From IMG/VR virus record IMGVR_UViG_3300029258_003280, positions 1 through 55,522 of that record: a DNA stretch of 55,522 nucleotides. One strand, written 5' to 3'. The notes beneath the pieces are model-generated. The model was given only the letters and a program-made list of their open reading frames with translations. It was not told the origin of the DNA and made no database searches. The translations under genes were made by a program, and so were the position numbers. This document shows positions 208-55,522 of this stretch, piece after piece; within the stretch, counting starts at the first letter, position 1; each line of letters starts with the position of its first letter. Source of the stretch: a virus.

Positions 208-825
208 ATGACCAGACGTGTAGCACCCGCTCCGCCGGGCGTTCCGGCATTGGAGCCAATCAGGCAAGACCTCTATGACACTAAAGTCCAGGACGGCTTG
301 GTGTCAACGCTCGAATTCTTCAGGAATCCGGGCATCGCGGGGCAGGCCGAGCTTGCAACAAACATGCAGGCGAACGGCCAGCTTCCCTATCCGCAGCAGT
401 TCCACGTCTTCGGGATAAACCTCGAATTTATCCCCACATTCGGCGAGGGCGCATCGGTGAGCTACGACAATGCCTTCTGGCAGAACAAGAAGAAAGTCCT
501 CGAACTCTGCTTTATGCGATTTCGCATAGGCTCCAAGGACTATCTTGTTGACCCCGCGAAGCGAATCCCGGCAGGCCTCGGCCCGGCAGGTTTCGCCAAC
601 GGAGCTCAGGCAATCGATGCATTCCCCACTAACGGGTTGCAGGACATCCAGCATTACTACGATGTCACGATTCGCCAGGGCGGAAAAATCAAACCCATCC
701 ACATCCCGGCACAGCAGTCATTCTTCATACAGCTTGTATGGCCGTTCGGGAACCCGGCGGTAAACCGCAATGGATGGGCGGTCAGGGCGTACCTCGTCGG
801 TATTCTCTGGAGAGAAGTTCAATAA
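208..825 (+). CDS. Capsid-like beta-rich protein, paralogue 1
   Basis: The protein has 205 residues and no signal peptide or membrane span. The next gene encodes a clear paralogue: both begin MTRRVAPAP, share LPYPQQ, IGSKDYL, KIKPIHIPAQQSF, and end YLVGILWREVQ. The alternating hydrophobic pattern and conserved C-terminal strand fit an all-beta jelly roll. The strong GGAGG site (196-200) supports the start. Two adjacent paralogous capsid proteins of this size recall the two single-jelly-roll major capsid proteins of P23-77-type viruses, but that link is inferred from size and arrangement, not from a detected match. The FFRNPG segment near residue 40 carries the Asn-Pro motif frequent in late proteins. 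A spike or decoration protein is the alternative. Confidence 0.7.
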   Translation: MTRRVAPAPPGVPALEPIRQDLYDTKVQDGLVSTLEFFRNPGIAGQAELATNMQANGQLPYPQQFHVFGINLEFIPTFGEGASVSYDNAFWQNKKKVLELCFMRFRIGSKDYLVDPAKRIPAGLGPAGFANGAQAIDAFPTNGLQDIQHYYDVTIRQGGKIKPIHIPAQQSFFIQLVWPFGNPAVNRNGWAVRAYLVGILWREVQ

Positions 826-879: not shown

Positions 880-917
880 GAATGCGGGAAGAGGAAAAAT
901 TTTCGATGGAGGTCGAT

Positions 918-1541
918 ATGACCAGACGTGTAGCACCAGCACCGGCAGGTGTCCCGGCGCTTGAGCCTATCGCTCAGGAACTTTATGACACCAAGGATTA
1001 TCCCATCGCGGGTACGGGAACTCTCACATTCTTCCAGAACCCCTCGGCTCTCGGAGAGATAGAGACAAACATGGTGGCTTCAGGCCAGCTTCCCTATCCG
1101 CAGCAGTACCATGCTTTCGGTATCTGTTTCGAGATTTTCCCGGGATACACCGAGCCCGAAGCGGTCGGCAACAACGTAGCGTGGGCTCGCGAAAAGCAGA
1201 AGCTCCGAGAAAAATGCTTCCTTCGCCTCACCATAGGCTCGAAGGACTACCTCACGCTGCCCGGATGCCACATTCCCGAAGGAATGGGCATTGCGGGATT
1301 CTCCGCGGGAGACGATACGCTCTCGAATTACGCATCGTTGACCCAGGGCATTCAGGACATCAAGCATGCTTTCGAGCTTACGGTGCCCCAGGCCGGAAAA
1401 ATCAAGCCCATCCATATCCCGGCCCAGCAGTCGTTCAAGGTCGAGATAAGATGGCCTACTCCGCTCGTGCTTGCGACACCGGAGCAGCCTGTCAAATTCA
1501 GAGTTTACCTCGTAGGAATACTCTGGAGAGAGGTACAGTAG
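918..1541 (+). CDS. Capsid-like beta-rich protein, paralogue 2
   Basis: This is a 207-residue paralogue of the protein at 208-825. The start at 918 is chosen over an upstream in-frame ATG (882) because GGAGG at 908-912 is correctly spaced and the product then begins MTRRVAPAP exactly like its partner. Conserved blocks are LPYPQQY, LTIGSKDYLTLPG, KIKPIHIPAQQSF and VYLVGILWREVQ. Central loops have diverged (GAGATNxx-type loop sequence is not shared), as expected for two capsid subunits or a subunit and a decoration protein. LTFFQNPS matches the FFxNP segment of the partner. The gene is followed by a strong hairpin, so these two genes may form their own abundant transcript. Confidence 0.7.
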   Translation: MTRRVAPAPAGVPALEPIAQELYDTKDYPIAGTGTLTFFQNPSALGEIETNMVASGQLPYPQQYHAFGICFEIFPGYTEPEAVGNNVAWAREKQKLREKCFLRLTIGSKDYLTLPGCHIPEGMGIAGFSAGDDTLSNYASLTQGIQDIKHAFELTVPQAGKIKPIHIPAQQSFKVEIRWPTPLVLATPEQPVKFRVYLVGILWREVQ

Positions 1542-10452: not shown

Positions 10453-11712
10453 ATGGCTAAGGCTCCGAAAGTCAGGATTACATATTATGACGAGTATAGT
10501 CGCGAGATGGACTATACCATCGGCAAAAACCGGTACAGGGCTCACGGCATCGAAAAGCTTTTTTACAATGATATAATAAATCTTATAGACCGTAAAAAGT
10601 ATGGAGATGCGATAAAGCTGCTGCGGAAAATAAAGCAATACCAGAAACTCCCGGAGGGAAAAATGGACAATCCAGTTGACAGGGCGGTAGAATGTGCGAT
10701 GAATCAATTCGGCGCGAATCCCCTTAACCAGAGCGAATTCAACAACAAAATCGAGAGGGTTCAAGTCCATCTCGACAAGGGAAAGTCGCTGCTTCGTTCC
10801 GGGCAGGCGCATCTCGCCGAAGAAGAGGCCTATCAGGGTCTCGGACTGCTCGAAGGGGTCGAGGCCGAGGCCGCCTCGATAATGGGCACGAGCGGAGAAA
10901 AGCGCCGTATCGTTCACGAGCTTCGCGCTTCGCTCAACAAGCTCATCGGCCACTCCGATGAAAGGCAGGGTCGAGCTCCTAATCCGCTTACCCAGAATGA
11001 ATATGACAGTCTTCTTGACATGATTATTCATACCGTTGATTTGGCCGAAAAGGAATACAAATGGGGTAATATAGCCGATGCAGTCGAGCGGATTAACTAC
11101 GCCGATGGCTTGATGGGGGCCGCCTACGGCGCGATACTAAAGCCCGGAGTTAAAACCAAGGAGAAATTCAGGGGAGTAAACAACAGGCTAAGGGCCCTGC
11201 AAAAGACATTGCGTGTCAAGTATCTTCCCAAGAAAAAGAATCCGGATGATTGGCAGCATCCGAGCTTGGGCTCTTCCGATATCGCCCCGGGTTACTTTAT
11301 AAATGTTCATGGAGCTCCCGGGTTAATGGTTGGCTATGAGTTCGAGGGTTATGACAGGCCCAGATGGGAAGAAAAACCCTCGCACCCACATCCCCATTAC
11401 AAGCTTATAGTCCTGCATGGCAAGAAGAAACAGACCTTCAACTATTGGGGGAGCCGACATGATTACGACATTGGTAAAAAGACCCTCTCGGAGATTGAGC
11501 TTGTCGAGGCGTTTACCATGCTTCTGGAAGATATCCGGGCGTCCAAGTTGACATTAAAAGACTTCGCCCTCGAATTCGGCTATGTTACTCAGGCGGCGGC
11601 CACAGCGACATGGAAAGCCTGTAAGACTATTCACGAAAAATGGAAGAAGCTCAACTACAGAAGGGGCTTAAGCAATACCATAAATGACATAAGAGACCAT
11701 TACGACCTTTAG
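10453..11712 (+). CDS. Multidomain NP-motif protein (polyvalent-type)
   Basis: It has 419 residues. Modules are separated by Asn-Pro sites at 73 (KMDNPVD), 89 (GANPLN), 177 (APNPLT) and 263 (KKNPDD). The final module (about 265-400) contains FNYWGSRHDYDIG and LKDFALEFGYVTQ, which I recognise as a small domain common as a separate protein in phages and plasmids. The middle modules are helical bundles. It shares MDNP[IV]D and NPL[NT] with the 1518-residue protein downstream, so both may be processed or sorted the same way. The ATG directly follows the stop of the lipoprotein gene. Confidence 0.65.
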   Translation: MAKAPKVRITYYDEYSREMDYTIGKNRYRAHGIEKLFYNDIINLIDRKKYGDAIKLLRKIKQYQKLPEGKMDNPVDRAVECAMNQFGANPLNQSEFNNKIERVQVHLDKGKSLLRSGQAHLAEEEAYQGLGLLEGVEAEAASIMGTSGEKRRIVHELRASLNKLIGHSDERQGRAPNPLTQNEYDSLLDMIIHTVDLAEKEYKWGNIADAVERINYADGLMGAAYGAILKPGVKTKEKFRGVNNRLRALQKTLRVKYLPKKKNPDDWQHPSLGSSDIAPGYFINVHGAPGLMVGYEFEGYDRPRWEEKPSHPHPHYKLIVLHGKKKQTFNYWGSRHDYDIGKKTLSEIELVEAFTMLLEDIRASKLTLKDFALEFGYVTQAAATATWKACKTIHEKWKKLNYRRGLSNTINDIRDHYDL

Positions 11713-12686: not shown

Positions 12687-15600
12687 ATGGAAAGCCCTAC
12701 GAAGCTTCATGGTATTCATGTAACAAGCGACCCCCAGCCGGTGCTCGATGTATTGCGAAGCGGCGGCGATATTTCCAAGGGCAGGGTTGAAGGCCTCGTA
12801 GGCGACCTCGGAAGCTCGGGCCTCTATTTCAGCCAGTCTCCCCAGTTGTGGACGGGCCGGGCCTACGGCAAGTGGGAGTTTCTTAAAGGGCTCTCGAAAA
12901 CCCAGCGTGAAAAGCTCGGCGACAAGCTCACAAAAGAGCTCCAAGACGAAAGAAGCTCGGGATATATAACGGAATGGGAGCTCGAAAGCGCGTTAAGATA
13001 CATAGACCAGTATGTAAACCATGACTTTGCGGGCTCTATAGTAATGATTGCGGGGCAACCTTACAACATAGGCTTCTGGAAGGAAAAATGGCTAAGCCCT
13101 CTGGGTATCGAGCAGGCAAGGCCGCCTATGTATATCGAAGTCGAGGCCGAGGGTTTGTTTGCGGACTTGACCGGCATGGCTATAACCCCCGATTTGATAC
13201 AAAAACTCAAGGAAGAAGGATATGACGGCGCTTACCACCGTGGCGATATGATTAACCTGCCTCAAAGCGTTGTCTGGAATACCAATGCCATAACCAAATT
13301 CGGGGAGATGTCATTCGCTCACAATCCGGCTTACTGGCCTATCTTCGCGGCCGGGATAGCTTCCGGGGTGGCAAGCGGCGCGGCCTTCGCTATTACCGGT
13401 TATGCCCTCAATAAATACGCCAGCAATCCCGAAATTAAGGTTTACAAAGGGGCTCTCGGGACTCCTGCGGTCGATTGGCCCGATGGTAAGACTTACATGT
13501 TGTCATACAGGAGTTGGGATGGGGCCTATGTCTTCGTTGACCCCGATACGAAACGTAGGCTTGAATTTGCTCCGCCCGAGGGCCGTAAATGGGAAACAAG
13601 CCCGATGGCCCCGGGTAAGCGGCCGGGATTTTCCCGGGTACAGAGACCGGGAGAATGGGTTTATGACCCGGCAGCGCGAAAGGTTTACAGGAGACCGGCC
13701 GACAATCCGGAGATGGTATCCCCGCATCCGGAAGAGGTCGAGCACCTCAGCGAGCAGGTGAAATTACTCTGGCAGAAAGCATGCGAATGGGAAGGAATCC
13801 CCCCGGACAGCAAGGTTGTAATATTCAGCAAGGACAATCCATACAATGATGCCTACAATAAGGCGATGACACAATACATGAAAACAAGAAAAGAGTTTTA
13901 CAAGGCGGTCGGCAAGCTCTTTGAGCGAAAGCGAGAGGAAAGAATGGACAATCCTATAGACGATTACAAGGGTTTTCGCGCTTGGATTACTCCCATCCCG
14001 GAAGAGAAAAGCGAAGGAAAATGGGATTGGGATGTAAAAGTCCAGCGCCTAAGCGATGGCAAGACAAAGACATTAAAGGTTTCCGGTGGCTGGCAAGTCG
14101 CCGAGAGCTACGTCCGGCAACTAATGGATGAGCTCGGCGAAGACGGCTATGCCAAAAACCCGACAACCAAACAGCCTTGGGAGATGACATATAGAGAGCT
14201 TAGAAACAAACTCGAAGAACTTGAAATGGGAAGCTTAACAGATTTTAATGAATCTAACATTGTAATATCAATGCCGGAAATAGTTATATCCCCGGGCAGA
14301 ATCGACTATACGGGGTTGTCGGCTGCTCATAGGTCGGCGATATCAAGAGCCCTCTCTCAGGGTTTTCAGGTGCCAGCAAAGGTGTTAAGGGAATATAAAG
14401 AAAACCCATCACGTAATGTTTTGCAGGTTTGGGCCGAAGATTTACATCCATCTCAAGCCAAAAAAGCCATTGATGGATGGGCATATGTATTTTGCTATAA
14501 TACTTGGGATATGCGCGGGCCGATTATAACCACCAAACTTGCAAGCCAAGCTTTGCCAGGAAGCGACATTGAATTCTTTCAGAAAAAGTTCGGTCGTCAC
14601 AAGTTTCGTGTCGTGAAAGCCCCGACCGCCAGCAATCCTAAATACATGAAATTCAAAGACCTGGACAAGGGTGCCGTTTTTATCTTCGCATCGGAAAAAG
14701 AATTTCCATATAGCGGCATGGCCAAGGGGCCTTGGAAGAAAATATCATCGAAAAAATACATTCTCGAAGATGAGCCATCGGTAGAGCACCAGGTGGGGAG
14801 CGTAAATGCCGAAGTTATACCCTACCACCAGGCCCGGAAAGGCTATATAGCGCCTTCAGAGCTACCGCCCGCAGGCCGTACAATCCAATTCTACGAAGGC
14901 GGCAGGCTTTTTACGGGCAGGGTAGTAGAGCAGGAACCGGAACTCGACGCCGTGCGGGTAGTTCCGGATACGGACAAGCATGCATTGTGGCTGATAAGCA
15001 GGGTAATGATAGTGGGCTCATACGCCAGCAATCCTCTCAATACGCAAGAAACCGCCGAGCTCGTGCATCTGGCCCGGATAGCTCTTGATACAGCGAAAAA
15101 AAATGTCAAAGGCAAACAATGGTCGATAGTAGCTTTTTATATAGGCGCAGCAGATGCCAACATCGAAGCCGCTTACCAGCATGGACTCGAAAAAACACAT
15201 ATGTCTAAAGAACTATTTGATGAGATAAGGCGCATGCGCAAGGAAATAAAAGACTTTCAAAAAGAACATTCAAGAGCACTGCTCGGTCTCACCAGCAACC
15301 CCGAAAAACCCGGCGTAGTTTGGCCGGTGGGTGCGAAGTTGTATGATAAGCAGGGTAAGTTGGTAGGGGTATGCCTCGATACGCCGAATGCTATAGCTAA
15401 GGCAATGATGGAGCATCCGGAAATAGAAGCCGCTCATACTCTTCTCGGTGTTAAAACGCGAGAGGACTACGTAAGCAGAATGCAGCCTTGGAATACAGCT
15501 AAAAGCCATTTTAAGGCAATGGCCGAAAACCCGGAGGGGTATCAGGGCTGGAAAAACTACGAAACATGGAACGTGGCCCTCTGGATGGGCAACGATGAAT

Positions 15601-17243
15601 TCTGGTATGATGTGGCAAAACATTCCCTCGATTACAGGCGCTTCAAAAATGCGATGATAAATCGTCATGGAATAACCGAGACCCCGGACGGCGTAAAGCT
15701 ACGCAGTCAAAAGCTCGACCGTAAGGCGCTTGACGAGCTCATCCTCGACCTCGGCGGCGGGAAAAAAGCCATAGAAAAACGCAAGCTCGAAAAGAGACGC
15801 GCCGCAAGAGAAGCAAAAGCCCAAACCGGTAAATATGCGCTCTTGAAGGACAACAAGGTTATCTTCGAGGGCACCAAAAACGAATGTCTTGCTTTTCTAC
15901 AAAGGCACCAGGGCCGGTCATGGGATTACGCCTTCAAATACGGCGGATACAGGCTCATCCCCATAAAAGACCTCCCGCCCGACGTCATTCGCATACCCAA
16001 GGGAATGACATCCGAAGGCTTCGTTTACAATCCTCAAAACACGCCTTGGGGAAAGGCCCAGAACCAGACAAAGCTCGCCAAGGGCGTTACCTGGGTTAGC
16101 ACTTCGAGGCACGGCGGGATGATGGTATCGGAAGGATATGCCAACAGGAATCTCAGTATCGCGGCCCGGAAACGGGCTCTCCGATACGGCAAGTATTATT
16201 GCTATGAGGAAGACGATGCCTGGATGATACCGGCATGGGAGCTCCCCCAAGTTTGGGATGAACTTTTCAAATACATGGAGCCCTCCAACTACAAGGAGAG
16301 GAAACTTTATCTTCTCGAAGGGTTGTCACGCTGGAATGCGGACTATCTTCTCGATATTCATGAAACTCCCATCCAGCCGCAATATGACCTATGGCGAGCC
16401 AAGCAAGCCGAAGAGAAATTGAGGCAGATGCAGCATCCCAATCTCATCACGGCTGCCAAACGGACAAGCGACCCCCACATCACTCAGGTATGGACGGCCG
16501 ATGGCGAAACTCATTTTGTTACCGCGAAAAGCTATTCGGAAAAATACCATCCCCAATACCCGACTTATCTAACCGACATGGAGATTGCCCATCCTCCTAC
16601 GCCGAAAGCGATGGGCCCGGCAGACTTCGTGTATAATCCCAAGAAAGCAGGCGGCCTCTACCAATACCGCGAACTCTACAGGAAGAAAAACAACTACATA
16701 CTTTATACAACCATAGGGGGCTTGGGTTGGTCTCGAAGCCGAAGAGACATATATGAGCCTATGGGGTATCCGGGCAAAATAGAGGTCGTGATAGGAAACA
16801 AAAAAGGCGACATAGTTTATGTCGATTCCGCCTATCTCAAGTCAACCAAAAACATTACCTTGAAAAACATTTCCTACTATGACAAAAGCACCATACCTCT
16901 GTACATGCAAAAAGAGGTCGTTAAAATATTCAAGGAGTTTGCCGGGAAAAGCAAGCCGCGCAAAGCCATCAGGGAACTAATGTCGATGGGCGAGTATCCG
17001 ACCGCTTTTCATAAGGAATTCAGCAGCAACCCCCAAAAACATCCCGACGAGATGACTCTGGCAGAGCATGCGGAAGCGTGGTGGCGCGAGCAGGGCAAGA
17101 AGGTGCCGAGACGCAACACTAAGAAATGGAAAAAAATGTATGAAAAATGGGTTGCCTTTGCCTTTAAGGATTTCGGCAAGAATCCGCCCCGGGGCAGGAC
17201 TACAAAAACCTATGGCGGCAAGGGCGGCGCATTACCCAGATAA
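12687..17243 (+). CDS. Giant polyvalent/polyprotein-like protein with ART-like domain and 15 NP sites
   Basis: It has 1518 residues. Order seen: (1) about 1-205, ADP-ribosyltransferase-like pattern (GLYFSQSPQLWTGRAYG; GYDGAYHRGD; VVWNTNAITKFG); (2) about 214-243, a hydrophobic segment; (3) 250-420, unknown; (4) 425-570, beta/alpha; (5) 655-715, a small phage domain (FKDLDKGAVFIF, HQVGSVNAEV); (6) 785-865, helical; (7) about 955-1020, the NYETWNVALWMGND domain (DUF7249-like); (8) about 1118-1190, the TPWGKAQ, SRHGGMMVSE, YYCYEEDDAWMIP domain (DUF7007-like); (9) two basic C-terminal modules. Asn-Pro sites lie at 213, 247, 340, 384, 422, 491, 573, 650, 782, 871, 948, 1115, 1317, 1448 and 1499, mostly between modules. 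Large fusions of small domains are known as polyvalent proteins of phages and conjugative elements, thought to be delivered with DNA. Cleavage at Asn-Pro is my inference. Confidence 0.75.
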   Translation: MESPTKLHGIHVTSDPQPVLDVLRSGGDISKGRVEGLVGDLGSSGLYFSQSPQLWTGRAYGKWEFLKGLSKTQREKLGDKLTKELQDERSSGYITEWELESALRYIDQYVNHDFAGSIVMIAGQPYNIGFWKEKWLSPLGIEQARPPMYIEVEAEGLFADLTGMAITPDLIQKLKEEGYDGAYHRGDMINLPQSVVWNTNAITKFGEMSFAHNPAYWPIFAAGIASGVASGAAFAITGYALNKYASNPEIKVYKGALGTPAVDWPDGKTYMLSYRSWDGAYVFVDPDTKRRLEFAPPEGRKWETSPMAPGKRPGFSRVQRPGEWVYDPAARKVYRRPADNPEMVSPHPEEVEHLSEQVKLLWQKACEWEGIPPDSKVVIFSKDNPYNDAYNKAMTQYMKTRKEFYKAVGKLFERKREERMDNPIDDYKGFRAWITPIPEEKSEGKWDWDVKVQRLSDGKTKTLKVSGGWQVAESYVRQLMDELGEDGYAKNPTTKQPWEMTYRELRNKLEELEMGSLTDFNESNIVISMPEIVISPGRIDYTGLSAAHRSAISRALSQGFQVPAKVLREYKENPSRNVLQVWAEDLHPSQAKKAIDGWAYVFCYNTWDMRGPIITTKLASQALPGSDIEFFQKKFGRHKFRVVKAPTASNPKYMKFKDLDKGAVFIFASEKEFPYSGMAKGPWKKISSKKYILEDEPSVEHQVGSVNAEVIPYHQARKGYIAPSELPPAGRTIQFYEGGRLFTGRVVEQEPELDAVRVVPDTDKHALWLISRVMIVGSYASNPLNTQETAELVHLARIALDTAKKNVKGKQWSIVAFYIGAADANIEAAYQHGLEKTHMSKELFDEIRRMRKEIKDFQKEHSRALLGLTSNPEKPGVVWPVGAKLYDKQGKLVGVCLDTPNAIAKAMMEHPEIEAAHTLLGVKTREDYVSRMQPWNTAKSHFKAMAENPEGYQGWKNYETWNVALWMGNDEFWYDVAKHSLDYRRFKNAMINRHGITETPDGVKLRSQKLDRKALDELILDLGGGKKAIEKRKLEKRRAAREAKAQTGKYALLKDNKVIFEGTKNECLAFLQRHQGRSWDYAFKYGGYRLIPIKDLPPDVIRIPKGMTSEGFVYNPQNTPWGKAQNQTKLAKGVTWVSTSRHGGMMVSEGYANRNLSIAARKRALRYGKYYCYEEDDAWMIPAWELPQVWDELFKYMEPSNYKERKLYLLEGLSRWNADYLLDIHETPIQPQYDLWRAKQAEEKLRQMQHPNLITAAKRTSDPHITQVWTADGETHFVTAKSYSEKYHPQYPTYLTDMEIAHPPTPKAMGPADFVYNPKKAGGLYQYRELYRKKNNYILYTTIGGLGWSRSRRDIYEPMGYPGKIEVVIGNKKGDIVYVDSAYLKSTKNITLKNISYYDKSTIPLYMQKEVVKIFKEFAGKSKPRKAIRELMSMGEYPTAFHKEFSSNPQKHPDEMTLAEHAEAWWREQGKKVPRRNTKKWKKMYEKWVAFAFKDFGKNPPRGRTTKTYGGKGGALPR

Positions 17244-17657: not shown

Positions 17658-18563
17658 TTAGGAGCTCTCTTCCACGACAGGCTCCGCCTCATCTATAAAA
17701 AGATTGCGCTGCATCTCCCCCTCGGGGATATCGTAGTTGCCTATCACGAGCTCGGTTACACGCTTCCCCTCGGTGAAGACGTTCTCGGAAGTGTAGATGG
17801 TGGGTACTTCTCTTATCGTAAAATCTTTATACATTTCTCTGGCTTCCTCGCAGTCATCTATACTGAGCATCCAGTACCCCTTGAACTTTGCTAATATGGC
17901 CGCAAGGTCTTCATGGTCTTTCATGGTAAAGTCGTTGGCATAACAGGCAACCGGATGCTTGGTGACACAGAAATATGGCGGGTCGCAATAAGCGAAGACT
18001 CGCCGCTTCTTAGTCTTCTTTGTGGCCTTCTTGTTGACGATTTTGAGGAATTCCCGGAAGTCCCTGTTTTCAATTATAACATCCTTAAGCCGCTCGAAGA
18101 CTCCCTGCCAATCTACGCCGTAAAAACCCGTCATTTTATCGGTGCCAACAGTAGAGCCCCATACCTCTTCGCCCGTAAAAAGTCTCATCGTACCGAACGA
18201 GCTTTTAATCAGGTAGTAAGCCATCGCGGCCCGGATATAAGGCGTAATGTCTTTGTAGGTCTCGGGGTCGCTCAGGGCCTCTCGATACTCATAAAATAGA
18301 GCTCTACTTTTTGGGTGAAAGGTCAGATACGAAACAAATTTCTCATGGAGCTCCGGGTCTTTGACCACCTTCCAGAGGTTAATCAGGAGGTCATCGACAT
18401 CACATACCCATTCCTGCTTGCTCTCTTTCTTCCAGAAGAGAAGATGGCCCGCTCCCAGAAATGGCTCTACATAGATATCATGCGGCGGGAACATAGTAAC
18501 AAGTTTGCGCTTGAGACGATTCTTACCCCCAATCCAGCTTAGCGGTGTTTCGATTTTTGACAT
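17658..18563 (-). CDS. Dam-like DNA N6-adenine methyltransferase
   Basis: It has 301 residues. Motifs of the D12/Dam class: PLSWIGGK near the N-terminus, SAM-binding VEPFLGAG (32-39), and catalytic DPPY (194-197). Length fits the family (about 260-300). Phage enzymes of this class methylate adenine in short sites to escape restriction or time replication. The target site cannot be read from the sequence. The acidic C-terminal tail beyond residue 280 is extra. Confidence 0.9.
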   Translation of the reverse strand: MSKIETPLSWIGGKNRLKRKLVTMFPPHDIYVEPFLGAGHLLFWKKESKQEWVCDVDDLLINLWKVVKDPELHEKFVSYLTFHPKSRALFYEYREALSDPETYKDITPYIRAAMAYYLIKSSFGTMRLFTGEEVWGSTVGTDKMTGFYGVDWQGVFERLKDVIIENRDFREFLKIVNKKATKKTKKRRVFAYCDPPYFCVTKHPVACYANDFTMKDHEDLAAILAKFKGYWMLSIDDCEEAREMYKDFTIREVPTIYTSENVFTEGKRVTELVIGNYDIPEGEMQRNLFIDEAEPVVEESS

Positions 18564-19241: not shown

Positions 19242-19445
19242 CTATTTAGTTTCGAGCAGCAGTTTTTGGTTTTCTACCTTACTGGTAAGCTCATCCACCT
19301 TGTTGAGTAGAAACCTCACCGGGCATAAATCCCCGCGCTTGTCGCGGCGCAAACCGAGTTCGCAGTCAACACAGGGCCTTTTCCGGGAGATTTCTTCCGG
19401 GGTATTGTCATATTTACAGGGATACCTTTCGCTCATTTCAGTCAT
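19242..19445 (-). CDS. Small cysteine-containing coiled-coil protein
   Basis: It has 67 residues from an ATG that overlaps the end of the zincin gene by 8 bp. The first half has four Cys (YPCKY, PCVDCELG, LCPVRF), likely one zinc site. The second half is a leucine-spaced helix. Confidence 0.5.
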   Translation of the reverse strand: MTEMSERYPCKYDNTPEEISRKRPCVDCELGLRRDKRGDLCPVRFLLNKVDELTSKVENQKLLLETK

Positions 19446-20028
19446 TTTCAAGCTCCAAGTCTATAACATCTTCGATAGCCTCTTCCTCTTCAGGCGTCAT
19501 TTCTTCGGCTATCACGACTTCTTTTCCCGCATAGGGGCCATAGCTTCTTGTGGCGTCGGTGGCGATATCTTCCTCATCGAAGGGCTCCGAGCCCATCGGC
19601 AGTTCGACATATTCTATTTCGTTATCATCGTAATGAAGGTTGACTTTGAATATTTCCACTACAACATAGTCGGCATCGCCGTCATCGTAGTTGTCAAGCG
19701 GGTTGTCCATCCCTTCATAATACGGATGTCGCTGGCAAAAAAGATGGCCGAATTCATGTATAAATATCCCCTGTCTGTTTTCTTCCGATAATTCGACCAT
19801 CATGCTGCTGCAACAAACAGTATTGGGGTGATGCATGGTATGGGCGTAGAGTCTCGGCGGCAAACCCTTTTTGGCCTGCTCCTCGATACTTTCCTGATAG
19901 GCCTGCTCGGCGTCCGGGCAGACATGTAAAACCACATTCTTGAATTCCGGCCTTTTATCTACCACGAAAGCCTTTACGACCTCGAAGCTCTGGACGACTT
20001 TTTTCAAGTCTGAATTTATTTTTTCCAT
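19438..20028 (-). CDS. HExxH zincin metallopeptidase-like protein
   Basis: It has 196 residues. IFIHEFGHLF (about 88-97) supplies the HExxH zinc site, and DGDADYVVVE (about 116-125) matches the downstream acidic third-ligand segment of phage zincins. An acidic tail follows. Between the two zinc segments lies GMDNPLDNY, the same M-D-N-P-x-D motif as in the two multidomain late proteins. This makes it one of two candidate processing enzymes here (the other is at 49178). Substrate and activity are unknown. Confidence 0.7.
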   Translation of the reverse strand: MEKINSDLKKVVQSFEVVKAFVVDKRPEFKNVVLHVCPDAEQAYQESIEEQAKKGLPPRLYAHTMHHPNTVCCSSMMVELSEENRQGIFIHEFGHLFCQRHPYYEGMDNPLDNYDDGDADYVVVEIFKVNLHYDDNEIEYVELPMGSEPFDEEDIATDATRSYGPYAGKEVVIAEEMTPEEEEAIEDVIDLELEND

Positions 20029-24794: not shown

Positions 24795-25394
24795 CTACCA
24801 TTTCCTTACCGCATCGAACTGGGCCCAGCGCGGCATAGTCTTGCCATCGACCCTCTCTCCCTGTATTCTTACCGGGAGCCTTACATCGTCATGGTCAACT
24901 TTAACCACGACGGCCTTGGTGCCGGGCACGAAAACCCGCTTAATCCATTGGTCATCGATATGGCCTGTTGTTATGACCACATCGCCGACCCTTACCGGTT
25001 CGAGCTTGCTCATTTTTATATAGGTCTCCCCGTTCTCGACCTCTTTCGAGAGCTCGCAGTAGTTTTTCTTCGAGTGCATAACCGGGGCTTCCTTGATAAA
25101 ACCTTCTCCGTGGCATTCTGGACATCTGGCTATACCCTTGCCGCCGCATCTCCTGCATCGGGATTTTATCTGGCCCGAGCCGCCGCAATTGACACAGGTT
25201 TTTTTAGCTTCCTCTTCGTTGCTGCATATGCTGCATTGTCTCATCCGGAAACCCTTGCCATCGCAGAAGTCGCAATCCTCATTCTTGGGCGAAACACCTT
25301 TCCCCTTACAGTTATTACATGTCGTCTTGTCGAAACAGGCTACAACCCTGACCATCCAATCTCCATACCAGCAAGCAGTATTGGGCTCAATCAT
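24795..25394 (-). CDS. DnaJ-type zinc-finger protein
   Basis: It has 199 residues. CxxCxGxG knuckles: CNNCKGKG, CDFCDGKG, CVNCGGSG, CRRCGGKG and CPECHGEG, plus a CSIC pair, so there is space for at least two to three zinc ions as in the cysteine-rich domain of DnaJ. There is no J domain. The C-terminal 90 residues have an SH3/KOW-like segment (VGDVVITTGHIDDQW). It may be a chaperone- or RNA-related adaptor. Confidence 0.65.
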   Translation of the reverse strand: MIEPNTACWYGDWMVRVVACFDKTTCNNCKGKGVSPKNEDCDFCDGKGFRMRQCSICSNEEEAKKTCVNCGGSGQIKSRCRRCGGKGIARCPECHGEGFIKEAPVMHSKKNYCELSKEVENGETYIKMSKLEPVRVGDVVITTGHIDDQWIKRVFVPGTKAVVVKVDHDDVRLPVRIQGERVDGKTMPRWAQFDAVRKW

Positions 25395-31691: not shown

Positions 31692-32073
31692 CGTTGTCCT
31701 CCGTAAGGCCGAATATGTTCTCGGATGAAAACTTCGTCTTGAATTTCGCGAAGCGGGCAATCTTGGCGACCGCCTTCTGGTGGAGCTTTAACAGGGATTT
31801 TTTCTTGACGGGCCACTTGCCGTTGAAATGTTTTACCATCGCCCGGCTGTTAAGATGGAGCTCGACCGGCACATCGGCGAGGGCAAAATAGCTTAAAGCA
31901 TTTTCGAGCGCGTATATGACGGCGAGGTATTGAGCCTCCATTTTCGACCGGGCCGGTTCCACCCTTGCGCGGCCCGAGGACATTACTTTGCCATCGGCGT
32001 CATAAAAAACCGTTGCTATCAGGGCCTCTCCATTATCGACCTTGCCATCGCAGTATATCTTAATCGGTTCCAT
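31675..32073 (-). CDS. RNase H-like protein with altered active site
   Basis: It has 132 residues. The pattern IYCDGKVDNG (first Asp), KMEAQYLAVIYAL (Glu) and VELHLNSRAMVKHF follows RNase HI, but the third catalytic Asp (normally DS) is Asn and the C-terminal N..AD motif is missing. The fold is probable; nuclease activity is doubtful. It may still bind RNA/DNA hybrids. It overlaps the thyX gene by 14 bp. Confidence 0.65.
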   Translation of the reverse strand: MEPIKIYCDGKVDNGEALIATVFYDADGKVMSSGRARVEPARSKMEAQYLAVIYALENALSYFALADVPVELHLNSRAMVKHFNGKWPVKKKSLLKLHQKAVAKIARFAKFKTKFSSENIFGLTEDNDEVEV

Positions 32074-32809
32074 CCTCTTCCTCCAAATCGCCGAAGACGG
32101 CTGGCATAAGAGTTATAAACTTGGCCATTATTGCTCTCATTATCTTGCGGATTTCCCATTGGGCCCTCTTGTTGAGCGCCCGGTGCTTGAAGACATGACG
32201 CCATTGCCGAAGATTGAATGTCGCGACCACTTCCGTCTTCGTGGCATTAGGGAGCATAAACCGGGCGTCTTCCGGGCTGTGTCCCTTCTGTAGCATGTGG
32301 AGATAGCTCTTGTAGGCATCGTTTATCCTGTCGAGCCACCATGAACTAACTCTCCACCCGTCTTGATAATACCAGTCATAAATTGCGATGTCTTTGTCTG
32401 GCTCAATCCTGTAGAGCTCGCTATTATCCGAGCGCTTGTATGTCCCGGAAGGAAGGTCATGGTTGTGTTTTCCCATTCGCGGCGGACAGATAACTTGCAG
32501 GCCCAACTTGCCGTAGTCGCAATATCGCTGGCTCTCCTGAGAATAGGCGGCGATGCGATGCCTTACAAGCTGGTGAGAGCATGCGCGGCTGCAATATATC
32601 TTGACGGTTATGACGCAATGTTCAATAACGCTTTCGTGGCCGCGCTTGATTATGCCCCTGACAAAATCCCGGGCGCTGCCATCGGTGATTTTGTTTTCGC
32701 TCTTGTAACATGTACGTCCCGCCTGCTCGATAACATCCAGCATACCGGGAAACCAATCGACCGGCGTAAGCAGCATATACCCCGGTTCCACGACCGTAAT
32801 CTTGTCCAT
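32060..32809 (-). CDS. thyX: Flavin-dependent thymidylate synthase
   Basis: It has 249 residues. The ThyX signature RHRxxxxxxxS is present as RHRIAAYSQESQRY, with an upstream GHESVIEH and C-terminal LNKRAQWEIR. ThyX makes dTMP from dUMP with FAD, NADPH and methylene-tetrahydrofolate, supplying thymidine for viral replication. The start at 32809 follows GGGAGATAGT. Length fits the family. Confidence 0.9.
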   Translation of the reverse strand: MDKITVVEPGYMLLTPVDWFPGMLDVIEQAGRTCYKSENKITDGSARDFVRGIIKRGHESVIEHCVITVKIYCSRACSHQLVRHRIAAYSQESQRYCDYGKLGLQVICPPRMGKHNHDLPSGTYKRSDNSELYRIEPDKDIAIYDWYYQDGWRVSSWWLDRINDAYKSYLHMLQKGHSPEDARFMLPNATKTEVVATFNLRQWRHVFKHRALNKRAQWEIRKIMRAIMAKFITLMPAVFGDLEEEDGTD

Positions 32810-32810
32810 A

Positions 32811-33200
32811 CTATCTCCCTTCAATTTTTTTAAGTAGCGCCAGTCTTGCCACTCGTATTCTTTTGAATTCTTCTATTCTGCCGTCATCGTGGAAAAGGAC
32901 TTCCGCAGTCCATATGTCTTCCAGAAGAGCCAGTCGGAGCTCCCCGGCGTCCTCGGCGCTTCTTCGTGCCTTTCTGAGCGCGGCGTTAATTCGGGCGGTT
33001 ACCATATCCCTGATGCCGTTGGCATCATGGGTGTTGAGAGTGAAGATATTAAAAAGCTTTGCCATCTCATTATTGTTAGAGTAGTTGGCCATGTTTTTCC
33101 TTTCTATTTCAAAGCTCATATAAAGCTTGTTATCTTTTATCTTATGCTTAATCCTGATAGTATCGCCCGGCAATATTTCCATAGGCTCGTTATTTTCCAT
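32811..33200 (-). CDS. Unknown helical protein
   Basis: It has 129 residues. The N-terminus is beta-rich (GDTIRIKHKIKD) and the rest is helical and charged. It overlaps the preceding short frame. No family is recognised. Confidence 0.5.
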   Translation of the reverse strand: MENNEPMEILPGDTIRIKHKIKDNKLYMSFEIERKNMANYSNNNEMAKLFNIFTLNTHDANGIRDMVTARINAALRKARRSAEDAGELRLALLEDIWTAEVLFHDDGRIEEFKRIRVARLALLKKIEGR

Positions 33201-36672: not shown

Positions 36673-37010
36673 TCCAGCCCCTCTATCTTGGCGGTCGTAA
36701 TACCGCGCAATGCTTTATATGATTCCGCCTTTTGCATCGTGACGGCAATGTCGCCATTAGCCAGAGCATTAATAAGCTCATCCGCCACCTCGATGATTAC
36801 TTTGTTGTTTCTGATTGTATTATTTAACATGAGAAGATTATGCTCCAACTGCTTAATCTTCGCCTTACGCTCGGCCTTGCTTCTTTTTTCGGGCTCTCTT
36901 TTGTCTTTTATGTTGGCCTTGAGGTCGGCCACTTGCTGTTTGAGAGCCTTGTTCTCGGCTTCCAGCTTGACGAGTCTTCTGCGCTTCTGGGCCTTCTCGA
37001 ACTTGCTCAT
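36660..37010 (-). CDS. Coiled-coil protein
   Basis: It has 116 residues. The start at 37010 follows AGGAGGAAACA. There is one long heptad-rich helix (VKLEAENKALKQQVADLKA) and a short C-terminal domain. It may pair with the helical protein at 36373. Confidence 0.55.
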   Translation of the reverse strand: MSKFEKAQKRRRLVKLEAENKALKQQVADLKANIKDKREPEKRSKAERKAKIKQLEHNLLMLNNTIRNNKVIIEVADELINALANGDIAVTMQKAESYKALRGITTAKIEGLEWVS

Positions 37011-49177: not shown

Positions 49178-49744
49178 ATGCCAATACATGAGATTTGTAC
49201 CACCGGCGAAGTACCGGTAAGAGTGCAAAAAATCAACATCCCAAACGGTAATGCCGGGATAATGGTTTCGGCTAAGAAGATAGTCGAGCTTATCCGGGAA
49301 TATTCCGCAAATCAGGAACGCATTCGCTTTCTCGCCGAAGATATCACCAGAGGTTGCAGGTCTAAGGATTATCTCTGCAATGCAAAAAGCGTCTATGATT
49401 GGGTTAAGGCCAATATCAAGTGGGACAGAGACCCGGATGGCATGGAAATGCTTCGCTCGCCCATTGTCACTCTCGACAGGCGGGTGGGGGACTGCGATGA
49501 CCATACCATTCTTATAGCGTCTCTTCTCAAGAGCATTGGTATGCCGGTCAGAATCGTGCTTATAGCGTCCCGGAGTTACCGGCCCGAAATATACAACCAT
49601 GTTTTAGTGGAAACTCTCGCGCCCGTAAACGGCGAGATGAAATGGGTTGCAATCGACACGACGCCTCTGGATGTAAACGGTAAGTATTTTCCCTTCGGCG
49701 TCAGGCCTCCTTCATATAAAGCGAAGGTAATGGAGGTAAGATGA
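49178..49744 (+). CDS. Transglutaminase-fold cysteine hydrolase
   Basis: It has 188 residues. RRVGDCDDHTILIASLL has the nucleophile Cys (106), YNHVLVE the His (141) and VAIDTTP the Asp (160), the triad of the transglutaminase/cysteine-protease superfamily. Homologues of this size occur in phage genomes beside structural genes. It may process virion precursors at the Asn-Pro sites, cross-link them, or digest a host barrier. The first option fits the genome content best but is unproven. Its stop overlaps the next ATG (ATGA). Confidence 0.75.
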   Translation: MPIHEICTTGEVPVRVQKINIPNGNAGIMVSAKKIVELIREYSANQERIRFLAEDITRGCRSKDYLCNAKSVYDWVKANIKWDRDPDGMEMLRSPIVTLDRRVGDCDDHTILIASLLKSIGMPVRIVLIASRSYRPEIYNHVLVETLAPVNGEMKWVAIDTTPLDVNGKYFPFGVRPPSYKAKVMEVR

Positions 49745-50604
49745 AATACAGCGACAACCCGGCAGCGTTGCTTCTTGTACCACTTTTCCTGCTGGTAGGC
49801 GGCGGCGTAGCGGCGGCCGCGGTGATAGCAAAAAAGAAAAAAGAGCCGCAACCCGTCCCGGTGCCGCCCGGGTCGTTCAATTATCCATACGGCGAGCAGC
49901 CCACTAACCAACCCACAGCCAAGGATGCTCCCTACGGCGCGAACCCAGCCGAGATGATTAAGACGGCACAGGAACAATACAAGCAATATGGCCCGGGGAT
50001 AAAAGATGCGGCCCAGACGGCCTACGACATATTCAAAAGCGGCGAGACCCCGCCCGAAAAACCCGCCCAAAAATCAATCTCGGAAATGAGCAGCAAGGAA
50101 ATGTCTATATACTTCGAGCAGCGAGACAAGACTACCGGCAAAAAACCCACCGATGAGGAAATGAAGGAATACTTCCGTAAACTCGAAGAAGAGGAAGCCA
50201 AGAAAGCCGATGCCGAGGGTAAGGCTAAACCCGGAGACCTCGACAAGGCCAAGAAAGCGGCGGGGCCGCTCTCTCTTGTGACCGGAGCGGGAAAGCTCGC
50301 ATGGGCTGGCGTCTCCGGAGCGGCCAAGGGTGTAGCGGCCGGTGTATCCGCGGCGGCGCCCATCCTCTTGCCGTTGGCGGCGGTTGCGGCCGTCGGTGTC
50401 GCGGTCAACAGCTATCGTATGGTACAGAAAAAGTATGATAAATATGACGACCTTTACGATGCCCATCGCGCCAACGCAATAATTTATGACCAGGGTACCC
50501 AGAAACTAAACGAAGCCATCGCGACGTTAAAGTTAGCCAAGAATGACCTTTTACGAAAAATAGAAAACATGAAAACAATCGTCAATGCGGTGACCGGAGG
50601 ATAA
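49741..50604 (+). CDS. Membrane-anchored virion-type protein with N-terminal SDNP
   Basis: It has 287 residues. MKYSDNP is directly followed by a span (8-29, LLLVPLFLLVGGG) and a Lys-rich stop. Then come a Pro-rich segment with GANPAEM, a charged helical middle, an Ala-rich hydrophobic stretch (about 205-225) and a final helix. The short leader ending in Asn-Pro before the span recalls a cleaved propeptide. Confidence 0.55.
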   Translation: MKYSDNPAALLLVPLFLLVGGGVAAAAVIAKKKKEPQPVPVPPGSFNYPYGEQPTNQPTAKDAPYGANPAEMIKTAQEQYKQYGPGIKDAAQTAYDIFKSGETPPEKPAQKSISEMSSKEMSIYFEQRDKTTGKKPTDEEMKEYFRKLEEEEAKKADAEGKAKPGDLDKAKKAAGPLSLVTGAGKLAWAGVSGAAKGVAAGVSAAAPILLPLAAVAAVGVAVNSYRMVQKKYDKYDDLYDAHRANAIIYDQGTQKLNEAIATLKLAKNDLLRKIENMKTIVNAVTGG

Positions 50605-52273: not shown

Positions 52274-52615
52274 ATGGGAAAACCGGCATATATAAAAATC
52301 AATGGCAAGACCGTAAAAGGCGAATGGCTTGAACCGGATGAGATGCCCTTCATAGCCAATCCGCAGGTTGCCAATACGGTCATGTTTATTGCTGGTGCCG
52401 GGCTTGCGGCTATGAAAGCTATTCGAAACATTTCAGGAGTCGCCCTGAACCCGCCCCTGAGAACCAAAATTCAGAGGGCTCTTCCTTGGGCGTTCGCATC
52501 GGGCATTACTTTGTTGGTGGCACCGGCATGCGGCAAGGCCAAGAATCCCTTGAGGGTTATCGCCGCTCTTCTGGGTCTCAAAGCGGTCAACGACTATGTA
52601 AGGAAGGAAGACTAA
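52274..52615 (+). CDS. Small membrane protein with three NP sites
   Basis: It has 113 residues. The start at 52274, 2 nt after the stop of the previous gene, is preferred to an earlier frame start. Asn-Pro pairs at 29 (FIANPQV), 59 (ALNPPL) and 91 (AKNPLR) lie at the borders of hydrophobic stretches (about 32-50, 68-84, 93-103). Confidence 0.55.
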   Translation: MGKPAYIKINGKTVKGEWLEPDEMPFIANPQVANTVMFIAGAGLAAMKAIRNISGVALNPPLRTKIQRALPWAFASGITLLVAPACGKAKNPLRVIAALLGLKAVNDYVRKED

Positions 52616-53484
52616 TGGCCGATGAGGTCGTGACAATCAGCATAGGCGGAAAGCTCCGTACTTTCACGAGCAGGCCCTTGGGCCCCGAGGATGCGTCAAC
52701 GGCCCGGAAAAGTCTCGCCGTCTTCTATCAGACCGGCGAAGAGCTTAAGGTTTGGCGCGAAAACCTGATGGGGTTAAGGGACATAGCCTATACTCAATGG
52801 CCCGAGTTTGTCAGAATGAAAATGCTTCCCCTTATACCAAAAATGACAGAAGAGCAGTACAGGCTCTTCGAGCAGGTAGATAATCGAATAAAAGAGACCT
52901 ATGACCTAATGTCCGGTCAGTATGGCAAGGCTCAGTCCGATTGGGACTCTCTCCTTCCCCATATGACCAAGATGAAGGAAGAGCTCGGGATGGCGGGTTT
53001 CGGATATCTGGGAAACCCAGTCCCCATCCTTATTATTATCGCGGTCATAGCGGTCGCGGCCTCCGCCGCAACGGTCGGCACTATGGTTTATCTCAGAGAA
53101 AAAGAAATTTCGGACAGGGCCTTGCAGCCAATCAAGGCATATAACGAAGCGGTCACCAAGAAGGTGGAGCTAACCGAACAGACCATAGGCAGAATTGAAC
53201 AGCTTAACAGGGATATAATCAACGAAACCGACAAGGCCAAGCAGGATATCATGGTCAGGACTTATAATGATACGGTCGATGGTTATCTCTCGGCCTTGGG
53301 GACTCTCAAGGATGTAGAAAAAACCATACCAGACATTATAGAAAAACAGGCTAAATTCGAGAAGGCGGTATCAGAAGGGAACGGGCCTCTGGGCTGGATG
53401 AGACATATTCCCCTTATACTTCTGGGGGTGGTTGGGGTAATGGTAGCTCCGTCAATAGCACAATCATTACCTAAAAGGAAATAG
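52615..53484 (+). CDS. Membrane protein with two spans and coiled coil
   Basis: It has 289 residues, starting with TAATG overlap. Residues 1-130 are soluble and helical. GYLGNPVPI (130-138) immediately precedes a span (136-160). Then comes a coiled coil (about 165-245) and a C-terminal span (about 262-282). It probably is a virion membrane or DNA-delivery protein. Confidence 0.6.
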   Translation: MADEVVTISIGGKLRTFTSRPLGPEDASTARKSLAVFYQTGEELKVWRENLMGLRDIAYTQWPEFVRMKMLPLIPKMTEEQYRLFEQVDNRIKETYDLMSGQYGKAQSDWDSLLPHMTKMKEELGMAGFGYLGNPVPILIIIAVIAVAASAATVGTMVYLREKEISDRALQPIKAYNEAVTKKVELTEQTIGRIEQLNRDIINETDKAKQDIMVRTYNDTVDGYLSALGTLKDVEKTIPDIIEKQAKFEKAVSEGNGPLGWMRHIPLILLGVVGVMVAPSIAQSLPKRK

Positions 53485-53486
53485 AG

Positions 53487-54326
53487 ATGGCAAATTATTT
53501 GTTCAAAAACCCGGGTAAAGGCAAAAGACGGCCGCCTAAAGAGTGGTTTTACTATACGGTCGAAAGGGTGAAGCAAAAACTGAAAAAGCGCGGTTTCAAA
53601 CATCGTCCGGGAAGCCCGTACAAGACCATACCTCAAGTTGCCAAGGCGATAGTCGGCGGTATGTGGTGGGGGACGACCGATGGACTCCACGAAAGCACGA
53701 AGCGCGACATTATAAGCGAAGTCATTAAAAACAGGGCCAAGGGCAAGGCCGCCGTGGTTACCAGCGATGGCACATTAACAAAGAAAGAAGTCAAGAGCGA
53801 GGTCGGCAAAAAGGCGGCCGAGAGCATATACAAGAAACTAAAGCTCACGAAGACGGAAATCAAAGAAGCCAAACAATTAAAGCGGGGAGTTCCCGCTATC
53901 GAACGGATAGCCGAGAGGCGAATGGTCGCTCCCAATCCTTCATTGCTTGTTGTTACCGGCAATCCGGGTATAGATTTATATGACAAGGGCAATCCTCCAT
54001 CGCTCGAAGACTTCAAGGAAGCCTATCCCGAGCTCTGGAAGGCCGCCATGAAACAATATAAGAAATTTCATGGCGTAGTGCCCGAAACGGTACAGATGCA
54101 ATGGGTTGATTCGGATGTTCCTCCCATACTGATTAAGATGGGAGATGCGCCCGATGTAACCTATCATGTCAAGGGGGCCAGCAAGAAACAGAAAAAGATA
54201 CCCTTTAAGCATGACTACAAGGGCGTTGTACATGTCTGTACCGATGCCAACGGCAGGATGATATTTCACATACCGGACGCCAAAAAAGGCAAAAATGTAA
54301 AAGTTACGGATTGGGTCAGAGGTTAG
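53487..54326 (+). CDS. Basic late protein with C-terminal phage-type domain
   Basis: It has 279 residues. MANYLFKNPGKGKRR is a basic N-terminus with an early Asn-Pro. Asn-Pro recurs at MVAPNPS, VTGNPGI and KGNPPS (about 149-172), just before a C-terminal domain (about 175-279) with VPPILIKMGDAPDVTYHV and HVCTDANGRMIFHI, a small beta-rich domain seen in other phage proteins. The NP cluster thus marks a domain border. Confidence 0.6.
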   Translation: MANYLFKNPGKGKRRPPKEWFYYTVERVKQKLKKRGFKHRPGSPYKTIPQVAKAIVGGMWWGTTDGLHESTKRDIISEVIKNRAKGKAAVVTSDGTLTKKEVKSEVGKKAAESIYKKLKLTKTEIKEAKQLKRGVPAIERIAERRMVAPNPSLLVVTGNPGIDLYDKGNPPSLEDFKEAYPELWKAAMKQYKKFHGVVPETVQMQWVDSDVPPILIKMGDAPDVTYHVKGASKKQKKIPFKHDYKGVVHVCTDANGRMIFHIPDAKKGKNVKVTDWVRG

Positions 54327-54336
54327 GAGAAAAACT

Positions 54337-55503
54337 ATGTGGGTATTTTTAGCGAATCCGCCCGAAAAAACGAAGGGAGGCAGTAAAGTGAGTTCCACTA
54401 CAAGAACGGGCAACAAGTTTCGGTCGCTTGTCAGGAAGCATGGCGTCACCAAGGGCGCCAAGGAATATAGAAAATGGAAGAGGGAGCAAAAACGGAAAAA
54501 GCCCTCTAAGAAGGCCAAGGCGAAAGGAGGAAAGCGTATGGCCAAAAGAGCATCTGGTTACAAGGCGCTCGTCAAGAAACACGGCGTCAAGAAGGCAGCG
54601 AAAATGTGGAGGGGTCGCGGAAAGAAAAAATCTTCGCGCAAATCCACGAAGGGCCGGAAACGCGCAACCGGCTACAAGGCGCTCGTCAAGAAGCACGGCG
54701 TCAAGAAGGCGGCGCGGATGTGGAGAGGTCGCTCGAAGAGCACCAAGAAGCGCTATGCCGCCAATTCATGGTCGGGCGACAAGAAGGGCCATTCCATCGC
54801 TTCGGCGGCGGGATGGGCGAGGCGTAAAGGCGTCCCCGTCCCCATATACCTTTCGCAGCGAGGCTACAGCAAGGCCGCAATCGACAGGTACATCAAGAAG
54901 CATGGCCCGGTCGGCAGAAGCCACAGGTCATACACCAAGACATACCCGGCGCGAAGCGCCAGGTATGCCATGAATCCCCTCGATACCGGCGTGGAAACCG
55001 TAAAAGGCGTCTTCGCCACGGAAACCGCCAAGACGGTTTTCGGTGTCGGTCTCGGATTCGTGGGGGTTGCGCTCGGAAACGCCGTAGTGCGCAGACTCAA
55101 ACCCGCAGCCGGGGGAGCCATGATAATCGGCGGCGAATTCGGCGGCTCGATACTTGCGGGCGCGGCCTATGCGATGGCAACGAAAGATGTCACCAAGGGC
55201 CTCTTGACCGCAAGCTCCGGTATCGCATTGAGCGTCTTCAAATTCGTCTGGGGCAAGTATGTCTCGGGCAGGAGTATATTCGGCCTCACCATGCCCGGCC
55301 TCAGCGACTATGTTGAGCTCCCCTACGGAGTCAGCGACTATGTTGAGCTCCCCTACACGGCGGGTTACGGCATGGGTCAGTCGCTCGATACCGGCATGGG
55401 CCAGTTCCTTCCCCCGGAAGCGGCGGAAGTAGGACAGTTCATTCCCGAGCAGTTCGGAGAATACACGGTAGGCATCGGCGAAGAAGCCGAAGTCGAATAT
55501 TAA
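54337..55503 (+). CDS. Basic-repeat/membrane late protein with acidic tail
   Basis: It has 388 residues and continues across the circle junction. Three basic repeats (about 27-48, 74-95, 112-133) read GYKALVKKHGVKKAAKMWRGR or similar and should bind DNA. RYAANSW and RYAMNPLD follow; then come hydrophobic stretches (about 231-250, 259-281, 287-305), a SDYVELPY repeat (323-340) and an acidic tail. Internal ribosome sites precede a GTG (54388) and an ATG (54538), so shorter forms starting at repeats 1 and 2 are possible. It may link DNA to the virion membrane or shell. Confidence 0.65.
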   Translation: MWVFLANPPEKTKGGSKVSSTTRTGNKFRSLVRKHGVTKGAKEYRKWKREQKRKKPSKKAKAKGGKRMAKRASGYKALVKKHGVKKAAKMWRGRGKKKSSRKSTKGRKRATGYKALVKKHGVKKAARMWRGRSKSTKKRYAANSWSGDKKGHSIASAAGWARRKGVPVPIYLSQRGYSKAAIDRYIKKHGPVGRSHRSYTKTYPARSARYAMNPLDTGVETVKGVFATETAKTVFGVGLGFVGVALGNAVVRRLKPAAGGAMIIGGEFGGSILAGAAYAMATKDVTKGLLTASSGIALSVFKFVWGKYVSGRSIFGLTMPGLSDYVELPYGVSDYVELPYTAGYGMGQSLDTGMGQFLPPEAAEVGQFIPEQFGEYTVGIGEEAEVEY

Positions 55504-55522
55504 ACAATGAAATTTTTCGGGA
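55379..55522. repeat. Terminal direct repeat, second copy
   Basis: It is identical to 1-144. See the first copy for interpretation. Confidence 0.95.

Follow-up and report, generated by a model that had tools for sequence, protein, structure and literature searches.

The stretch of DNA analysed here (the window) is the whole of IMG/VR virus record IMGVR_UViG_3300029258_003280, 55,522 nucleotides from a groundwater-type bacterial virus. An open reading frame on the plus strand (12687–17243) encodes a protein of 1518 amino acids, referred to below as the giant protein. Judging from the layout of the genome, the plus strand would carry the late genes and the minus strand the early genes, which would place the gene for the giant protein in the late operon. 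The pair Asn-Pro (NP) is present in it at residues 213, 247, 340, 384, 422, 491, 573, 650, 782, 871, 948, 1115, 1317, 1448, and 1499, exactly as listed in an initial annotation of this DNA, which took the pairs to be module borders and a virus-wide cleavage or sorting signal. Comparison with two related viruses indicates that the giant protein almost certainly has a motif-delimited cassette architecture, in which some 15 small cassettes that evolve independently are strung together, and that the Asn-Pro tag at the seams is probably a cutting or sorting signal.

Asn-Pro pairs in the giant protein and in other late proteins

The 15 pairs exceed what the composition of the protein would give, as had been proposed: 5000 within-protein shuffles had a mean of 3.3 (standard deviation 1.7) and a maximum of 11. 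No dipeptide of the giant protein is more over-represented than NP, while the reverse pair PN occurs only twice and the other Pro pairs are not enriched (DP 4 against 4.7 expected, SP 6 against 5.1, GP 3 against 6.9). There are 34 NP in the other late, plus-strand proteins, where 15.8 are expected, and 21 in the early block, where 14.8 are expected. The controls, which were parts of T4, cyanophage S-RIM4, and a methanogen virus (vir525) and all of Salisaeta icosahedral phage 1 (SSIP-1), have NP at 1.07–1.43 times expectation. Set against the highest of these ratios, the excess is extreme in the giant protein (Poisson p = 1e-4), marginal in the other late proteins (p = 0.015), and unremarkable in the early proteins (p = 0.54). 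The late-versus-early comparison with shuffled composition, put forward with the initial annotation, does find enrichment, which is strongest in the giant protein; the description of the signal as virus-wide is overstated, the early proteins being at the general phage baseline.

Phe or Tyr is found at position -3 of 19 of the 49 late NPs, compared with 27 of 293 other late Asn residues (p = 8e-7), and at this position in 1 of the 21 early NPs. The [YF]-A-x-N-P type of context noted previously is real, as [FY]xxNP, in the late proteins only. Its recurrence across late proteins holds for several of them, but two of the examples cited (19438 and 44739) sit in the minus-strand early block, and the one at 44739, given as an MDNP[LIV]D form, reads FINPLD rather than MDNPLD.

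Asn-Pro pairs are also seen, as had been suggested, at the N-termini and before the membrane spans of several late proteins, where they are conserved in relatives (Table 1); the leaders are retained while neighbouring residues change. A hydrophobic span follows NP in the proteins starting at 49741, 52274, and 52615, and in the giant protein at residue 213.

Exchange of modules at the seams

Homologues of the giant protein are present in a 57-kb virus from IMG/VR (IMGVR_UViG_3300018080_000022; 1187 aa) and in a third virus, a close relative of the window virus, found as five contigs binned in the Omnitrophota metagenome-assembled genome (MAG) RBin_191. Two of these contigs overlap by exactly 141 bases and, when joined, give a protein of 1104 aa. 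Between the three viruses the modules have been swapped, inserted, or deleted. Window residues 1–214, 213–257, 867–1318, and 1452–1499 match the protein of the 57-kb virus at 59–79% identity, the intervening parts being unrelated. The third protein contains, in order, window residues 1–492, the IQITLHRG module of the 57-kb virus, the phrog_38200-like module, DUF7007, the AEAWW module (AEAWWREQGKKVP in the window), and a 177 aa module of its own. It is therefore a mosaic, in which window modules 1–492 and a module of the 57-kb relative meet at an NP.

All of the ends of homology blocks were collected from the three giant proteins and from a second modular protein (10453–11712) and its homologues. 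Of these 34 ends, 24 are no more than 6 residues from an NP, where random placement gave a mean of 4.7 and a maximum of 14 in 20,000 trials. At NP263 of the second protein the window has no insert. The 57-kb virus and the third virus each have one there; the two inserts are different modules, and both end in NP. The IQITLHRG module is preceded in two viruses by a doubled seam, NP[GC]YADNP, with its two sites six residues apart, which looks like the fusion of a whole leader-bearing gene into the string.

The placing of the NPs between recognisable domains is borne out by the DUF7249 match, which runs from residue 950, just after NP948, and by DUF7007, which runs from residue 1116 at NP1115. The modules of the giant protein match only domains of unknown function (DUFs) or nothing in Pfam, and for module 1 and most of the others there is no Pfam or PDB match. 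An AlphaFold model (pLDDT 41) places the NPs in coil, for the most part with low confidence, and gives scores of about 60–80 to two small domains that lie between seams; the predicted coil and small domains would lend weak support to this layout.

Some of the modules have free-standing relatives. The DUF7249 gene of S-RIM4 (73 aa) has its Met start exactly where NP948-949 ends, and Nostoc and Vibrio plasmids carry DUF7007 as a gene in its own right, beginning at NP1115. The AEAWW module is a 43 aa gene in an unrelated viral contig, ending a few residues before the seam, and on the archaeal plasmid P-10H_0 (LC711081) a distant relative of module 1 has a gene to itself. The free-standing versions are without the seam NP, so that the motif belongs to the joining and not to the modules.

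On plasmid P-10H_0 the neighbouring proteins carry RelA-type and other domains, with TIVNP near their N-termini, and this plasmid may be another cargo-rich element.

Selection on the motif

Within homologous blocks NP is kept at all 17 homologous sites, compared with 28 of 41 other Asn residues (p = 0.006), so that the retention at the same borders looked for in relatives is indeed present. The four positions preceding NP change more quickly than the remainder: in the comparison with the 57-kb virus, 10 of 27 residues are identical there against 551 of 756 elsewhere (p = 1e-4). Of the eight codon pairs that can encode NP, seven are in use, and the codons ahead of it vary between sites at their wobble positions. 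The invariance of NP, the divergence of its flanks, and the variation of its codons show that selection acts on the peptide, within a linker otherwise free to change. A recombination scar at the DNA level was ruled out, since the NP and flanking codons vary between sites.

Table 1. Positions of the giant protein, its seams and modules, and related features of the window.
Feature	Position	Strand	Remarks
Giant modular (cassette) protein, 1518 aa, 15 NP seams	12687..17243	+	Homologues of 1187 and 1104 aa, modules swapped
Module 1, residues 1-212	12687..13322	+	Common to all three viruses
NP213 seam	13323..13328	+	53-aa module inserted here in 57-kb relative
Membrane-span module, residues 215-246, NP213 to NP247	13329..13424	+	Span predicted from sequence; shared as a block
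NP247 seam	13425..13430	+	Retained in all three viruses
NP340 seam	13704..13709	+	Retained in third virus
NP384 seam	13836..13841	+	Retained in third virus
NP422 seam (MDNPID)	13950..13955	+	Retained in third virus
NP491 seam	14157..14162	+	End of homology with third virus
NP573 seam	14403..14408	+	
NP650 seam	14634..14639	+	
NP782 seam	15030..15035	+	
NP871 seam	15297..15302	+	Homology with 57-kb relative restarts
NP948 seam	15528..15533	+	Retained in 57-kb relative; free S-RIM4 gene begins at seam
DUF7249 module, residues 950-1022	15534..15752	+	Free-standing gene in cyanophages
phrog_38200-like module, residues 1049-1089	15831..15953	+	NP before module in third virus, not in window
NP1115 seam	16029..16034	+	Retained in all three viruses; free Nostoc/Vibrio genes begin at seam
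DUF7007 domain, residues 1116-1240	16032..16406	+	
NP1317 seam	16635..16640	+	
Window-only module, residues 1319-1447, NP on both sides	16641..17027	+	Missing from both relatives at this point
NP1448 seam	17028..17033	+	
Helical module AEAWWREQGKKVP, residues 1450-1498	17034..17180	+	Free-standing 43-aa gene in unrelated viral contig
NP1499 seam	17181..17186	+	177-aa module inserted here in third virus
Second modular protein, 419 aa (643 aa in 57-kb relative), NP at 73, 89, 177, 263	10453..11712	+	Module insertions at NP89 and NP263
N-terminal MKYSDNP leader, membrane protein 49741-50604	49756..49761	+	Conserved as MQYRENP/MKYSDNP
MPFIANP before membrane span, protein 52274-52615	52358..52363	+	Conserved in third virus
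GFGYLGNP before membrane span, protein 52615-53484	53014..53019	+	Conserved in third virus
N-terminal MANYLFKNP leader, protein 53487-54326	53508..53513	+	Conserved in 57-kb relative (MANYLFKENP)
N-terminal MWVFLANP leader, protein 54337-55503	54355..54360	+	Conserved in both relatives; MWTFLVNP variant
Transglutaminase-like cysteine enzyme, candidate protease (C106, H141, D160)	49178..49744	+	PF01841, E=2e-12
HEFGH zincin-like protein, alternative candidate protease	19438..20028	-	HExxH conserved in two relatives
Tandem paralogues, 56% identical	208..825 and 882..1541	+	Beta-sandwich predicted, pLDDT 49

Candidate processing enzymes

The Cys-His-Asp triad of the transglutaminase-like enzyme is conserved in the 57-kb relative and in gp34 of SSIP-1, which is recorded as a structural protein. 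The enzyme of the window shares 94% identity with its counterpart in the third virus, and its nearest match is SSIP-1 gp34 (35.5% identity, E=8e-17). As a candidate protease it is favoured over the zincin-like protein because it stands at the start of the late structural genes and because its SSIP-1 relative is annotated as structural. The zincin-like protein has no Pfam match; it has a conserved NPLD just after the HEFGH motif.

Interpretation of the motif

From one related virus to another, cassettes have been gained, dropped, or exchanged, and nearly every seam carries a short motif, the fullest form of which is [FY]-x-x-N-P. The best explanation would be that a virus-encoded protease cuts at or beside the Asn-Pro. 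This would most likely be the transglutaminase-like Cys-His-Asp enzyme, or else the HEFGH zincin, and the cutting, during virion maturation or after delivery, would free each cassette as its own protein and trim the leaders. The probability of this explanation as a whole is put at about 0.5. For the motif as a processing site, which is suggested by where it lies, by the doubled sites and the leaders, and by the occurrence of modules as separate proteins elsewhere, the odds appear roughly even, while the assignment of the cut to the transglutaminase-like enzyme is tentative. By analogy with polyvalent proteins, most of the cassettes are probably host-directed virion cargo. The fullest version, a true processed polyprotein in a double-stranded DNA (dsDNA) bacterial virus, would combine host-takeover cassettes and virion membrane leaders under one portable [FY]xxNP signal and one transglutaminase-fold protease acting at Asn-Pro, with recruitment through fusion of leader-bearing genes, and it is rather doubtful.

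Several observations weigh against processing at the seams. Phe or Tyr is at -3 in just 9 of the 15 sites of the giant protein, and [FY]xxNP is present also inside a conserved candidate capsid protein (EFFRNP). The seam at residue 1048 is without NP in two viruses, though the third has it, so that the motif is not obligatory. The transglutaminase-like enzyme might have another role, in protein crosslinking or on the cell wall. Pro at P1' is disfavoured by most proteases, so a cut between Asn and Pro would be unusual; a cut after the Pro is equally compatible and also fits the starts of the free-standing genes. The comparisons themselves rest on three related viruses only.

The motif could instead be a docking or sorting tag that binds a capsid or membrane partner for packaging, with the giant protein entering the host uncut, which is less probable but has a modest chance. 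It would account for the motif at extreme N-termini and just upstream of membrane spans, the aromatic residue at -3 resembles the anchor of a short linear motif, and some polyvalent-type proteins move full length (PMC5512222). However, a single chain needs one tag, yet nearly every seam has one, and the doubled sites six residues apart, together with the exact match to cassette ends, are easier to read as cuts. Somewhat less probable again is a passive linker, in which recombination fused the cassettes and Asn-Pro is no more than a break that folded domains tolerate well between them. In its favour, all of the phages tested have a mild excess of NP (1.1–1.4 times), the seams are predicted to be coil in the low-confidence model, and one seam is without NP. 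However, the other Pro pairs that linkers often contain (DP, SP, GP, PN) show no enrichment, NP is invariant though its neighbours diverge, and the aromatic at -3 and the leaders at residues 6–8 of separate proteins would be left unexplained.

Self-cutting of the FlhB/YscU kind, in which the side chain of Asn attacks and the chain is broken between Asn and Pro, is very unlikely. FlhB is cut autocatalytically between Asn269 and Pro270 (PMC3708937), and the same Asn-Pro pair is present in FlhB/YscU/SpaS. FlhB cleaves in a highly conserved NPTH, whereas in the giant protein there are many sites rather than one, none is followed by Thr-His, the two residues after NP vary freely, and the seams are in presumed flexible linkers. 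Pfam found no FlhB-type domain, nor was a shared fold found, so membership of this family was rejected and the NPTH precedent offered initially applies to the chemistry only. Chance, as a composition effect in a protein that contains Asn and Pro, has nothing in its favour beyond the mild phage-wide NP bias. Its probability is negligible, and it is contradicted by the shuffles, the control phages, the block ends, the aromatic at -3, and the conservation.

The virus and its relatives

The ends of the window are an exact 144-base terminal repeat (1–144 and 55379–55522), which would make the genome probably complete and circular, of about 55.4 kb of dsDNA. The gene order runs on across the window ends, as it does in the 57-kb relative. 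SSIP-1 is tailless and contains a membrane, and the window virus may be a tailless phage of this kind; a scan of it for simple Walker A motifs gave no plausible gene for an A32-like packaging ATPase. The tandem paralogues (Table 1) are likely to be two small capsid proteins, comparable to SSIP-1 gp45 and gp46; their best BFVD match is 211 aa long, like gp46, but unnamed.

Binning of the third virus gives a weak hint of an Omnitrophota host, and among 384 genomes of the phylum only MAG RBin_191 itself carried a giant protein. IMG/VR was scanned with the giant protein, the capsid paralogues, the transglutaminase-like protein, the protein at 53487 and its FHG stretch, the AEAWW module, and DUF7007. 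These scans, with narrow seed patterns that do not prove rarity, found one related virus and the one unrelated contig with the free-standing AEAWW gene.

The minus strand also encodes a Toprim/CHC2 primase fused to a phrog_10537-like region (39828–42734), the nearest named relative of which is in the Methanosarcinales-linked virus vir525, and a radical SAM protein resembling spore photoproduct lyase (37986–38918; PF20903 just below cut-off). A ThyX thymidylate synthase (32060–32824), a D12-type adenine methyltransferase (17658–18563), a protein with a central DnaJ CXXCXGXG domain (24795–25394), and a short PnuC-like NMN transporter match in a 132 aa protein (37007–37405) are present on the same strand.

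Comparison with known systems

The polyvalent proteins of phages and conjugative elements have 2–15 distinct domains per polypeptide and are presumed to enter the host together with the DNA (Iyer et al. 2017, PMC5512222). It has been argued that they need processing because their domains have different targets, and processing into units has been proposed, mainly by zincin-like peptidase domains; a fused zincin or other peptidase domain is common (about 36%) but not obligatory (PMC5512222). Like these, the giant protein is a late protein of very large size in which many small domains, unrelated to one another, are joined, with DUF7249, phrog_38200, DUF7007, the membrane-span module, and other blocks exchanged as units. 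It differs in that the peptidase candidates of the window virus are separate genes, most modules are uncharacterised, and the NP borders are conserved as exchange seams. There is no HExxH and no peptidase match within the giant protein, the zincin-like protein being a separate early gene, and the text of Iyer et al. 2017 (PMC5512222) makes no mention of a short seam motif.

In SSIP-1, which shares the transglutaminase-like protein, gp43 is likewise multidomain and very large (2319 aa), and it is annotated as a structural protein. In contrast to the giant protein, gp43 has 3 NP (2.5 expected), and there is no sequence homology between the two. Although gp41 of SSIP-1 begins MRENP, the NP ratio of this phage is 1.32, near baseline, which indicates that the motif of the giant protein does not extend to it.

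RNA-virus polyproteins and the maturation proteases of the adenovirus/PRD1 lineage and of T4 type would share with this system the logic of small border motifs and a virus-coded protease, though the motifs and enzymes differ and cleavage here is putative. Separate relatives exist of DUF7249, DUF7007, and the AEAWW module, and the borders have a conserved motif, with putative recognition by a protease. Phage polyproteins were not met as a named concept in the literature searched, and a conserved Asn-Pro tag at cassette seams was, as far as found in the literature and collections searched, not described in such viruses.

If cutting does take place at the seams, phages would have their own counterpart of the RNA-virus polyprotein strategy, in which a portable motif enables cassette exchange, and Asn-Pro-directed proteolysis would gain an enzyme. 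The NP seams bear also on how the domains of polyvalent proteins, with their different cellular targets, act from one chain. Even without cleavage, they provide a rule by which giant phage proteins that have no known function can be divided into units suited to testing.
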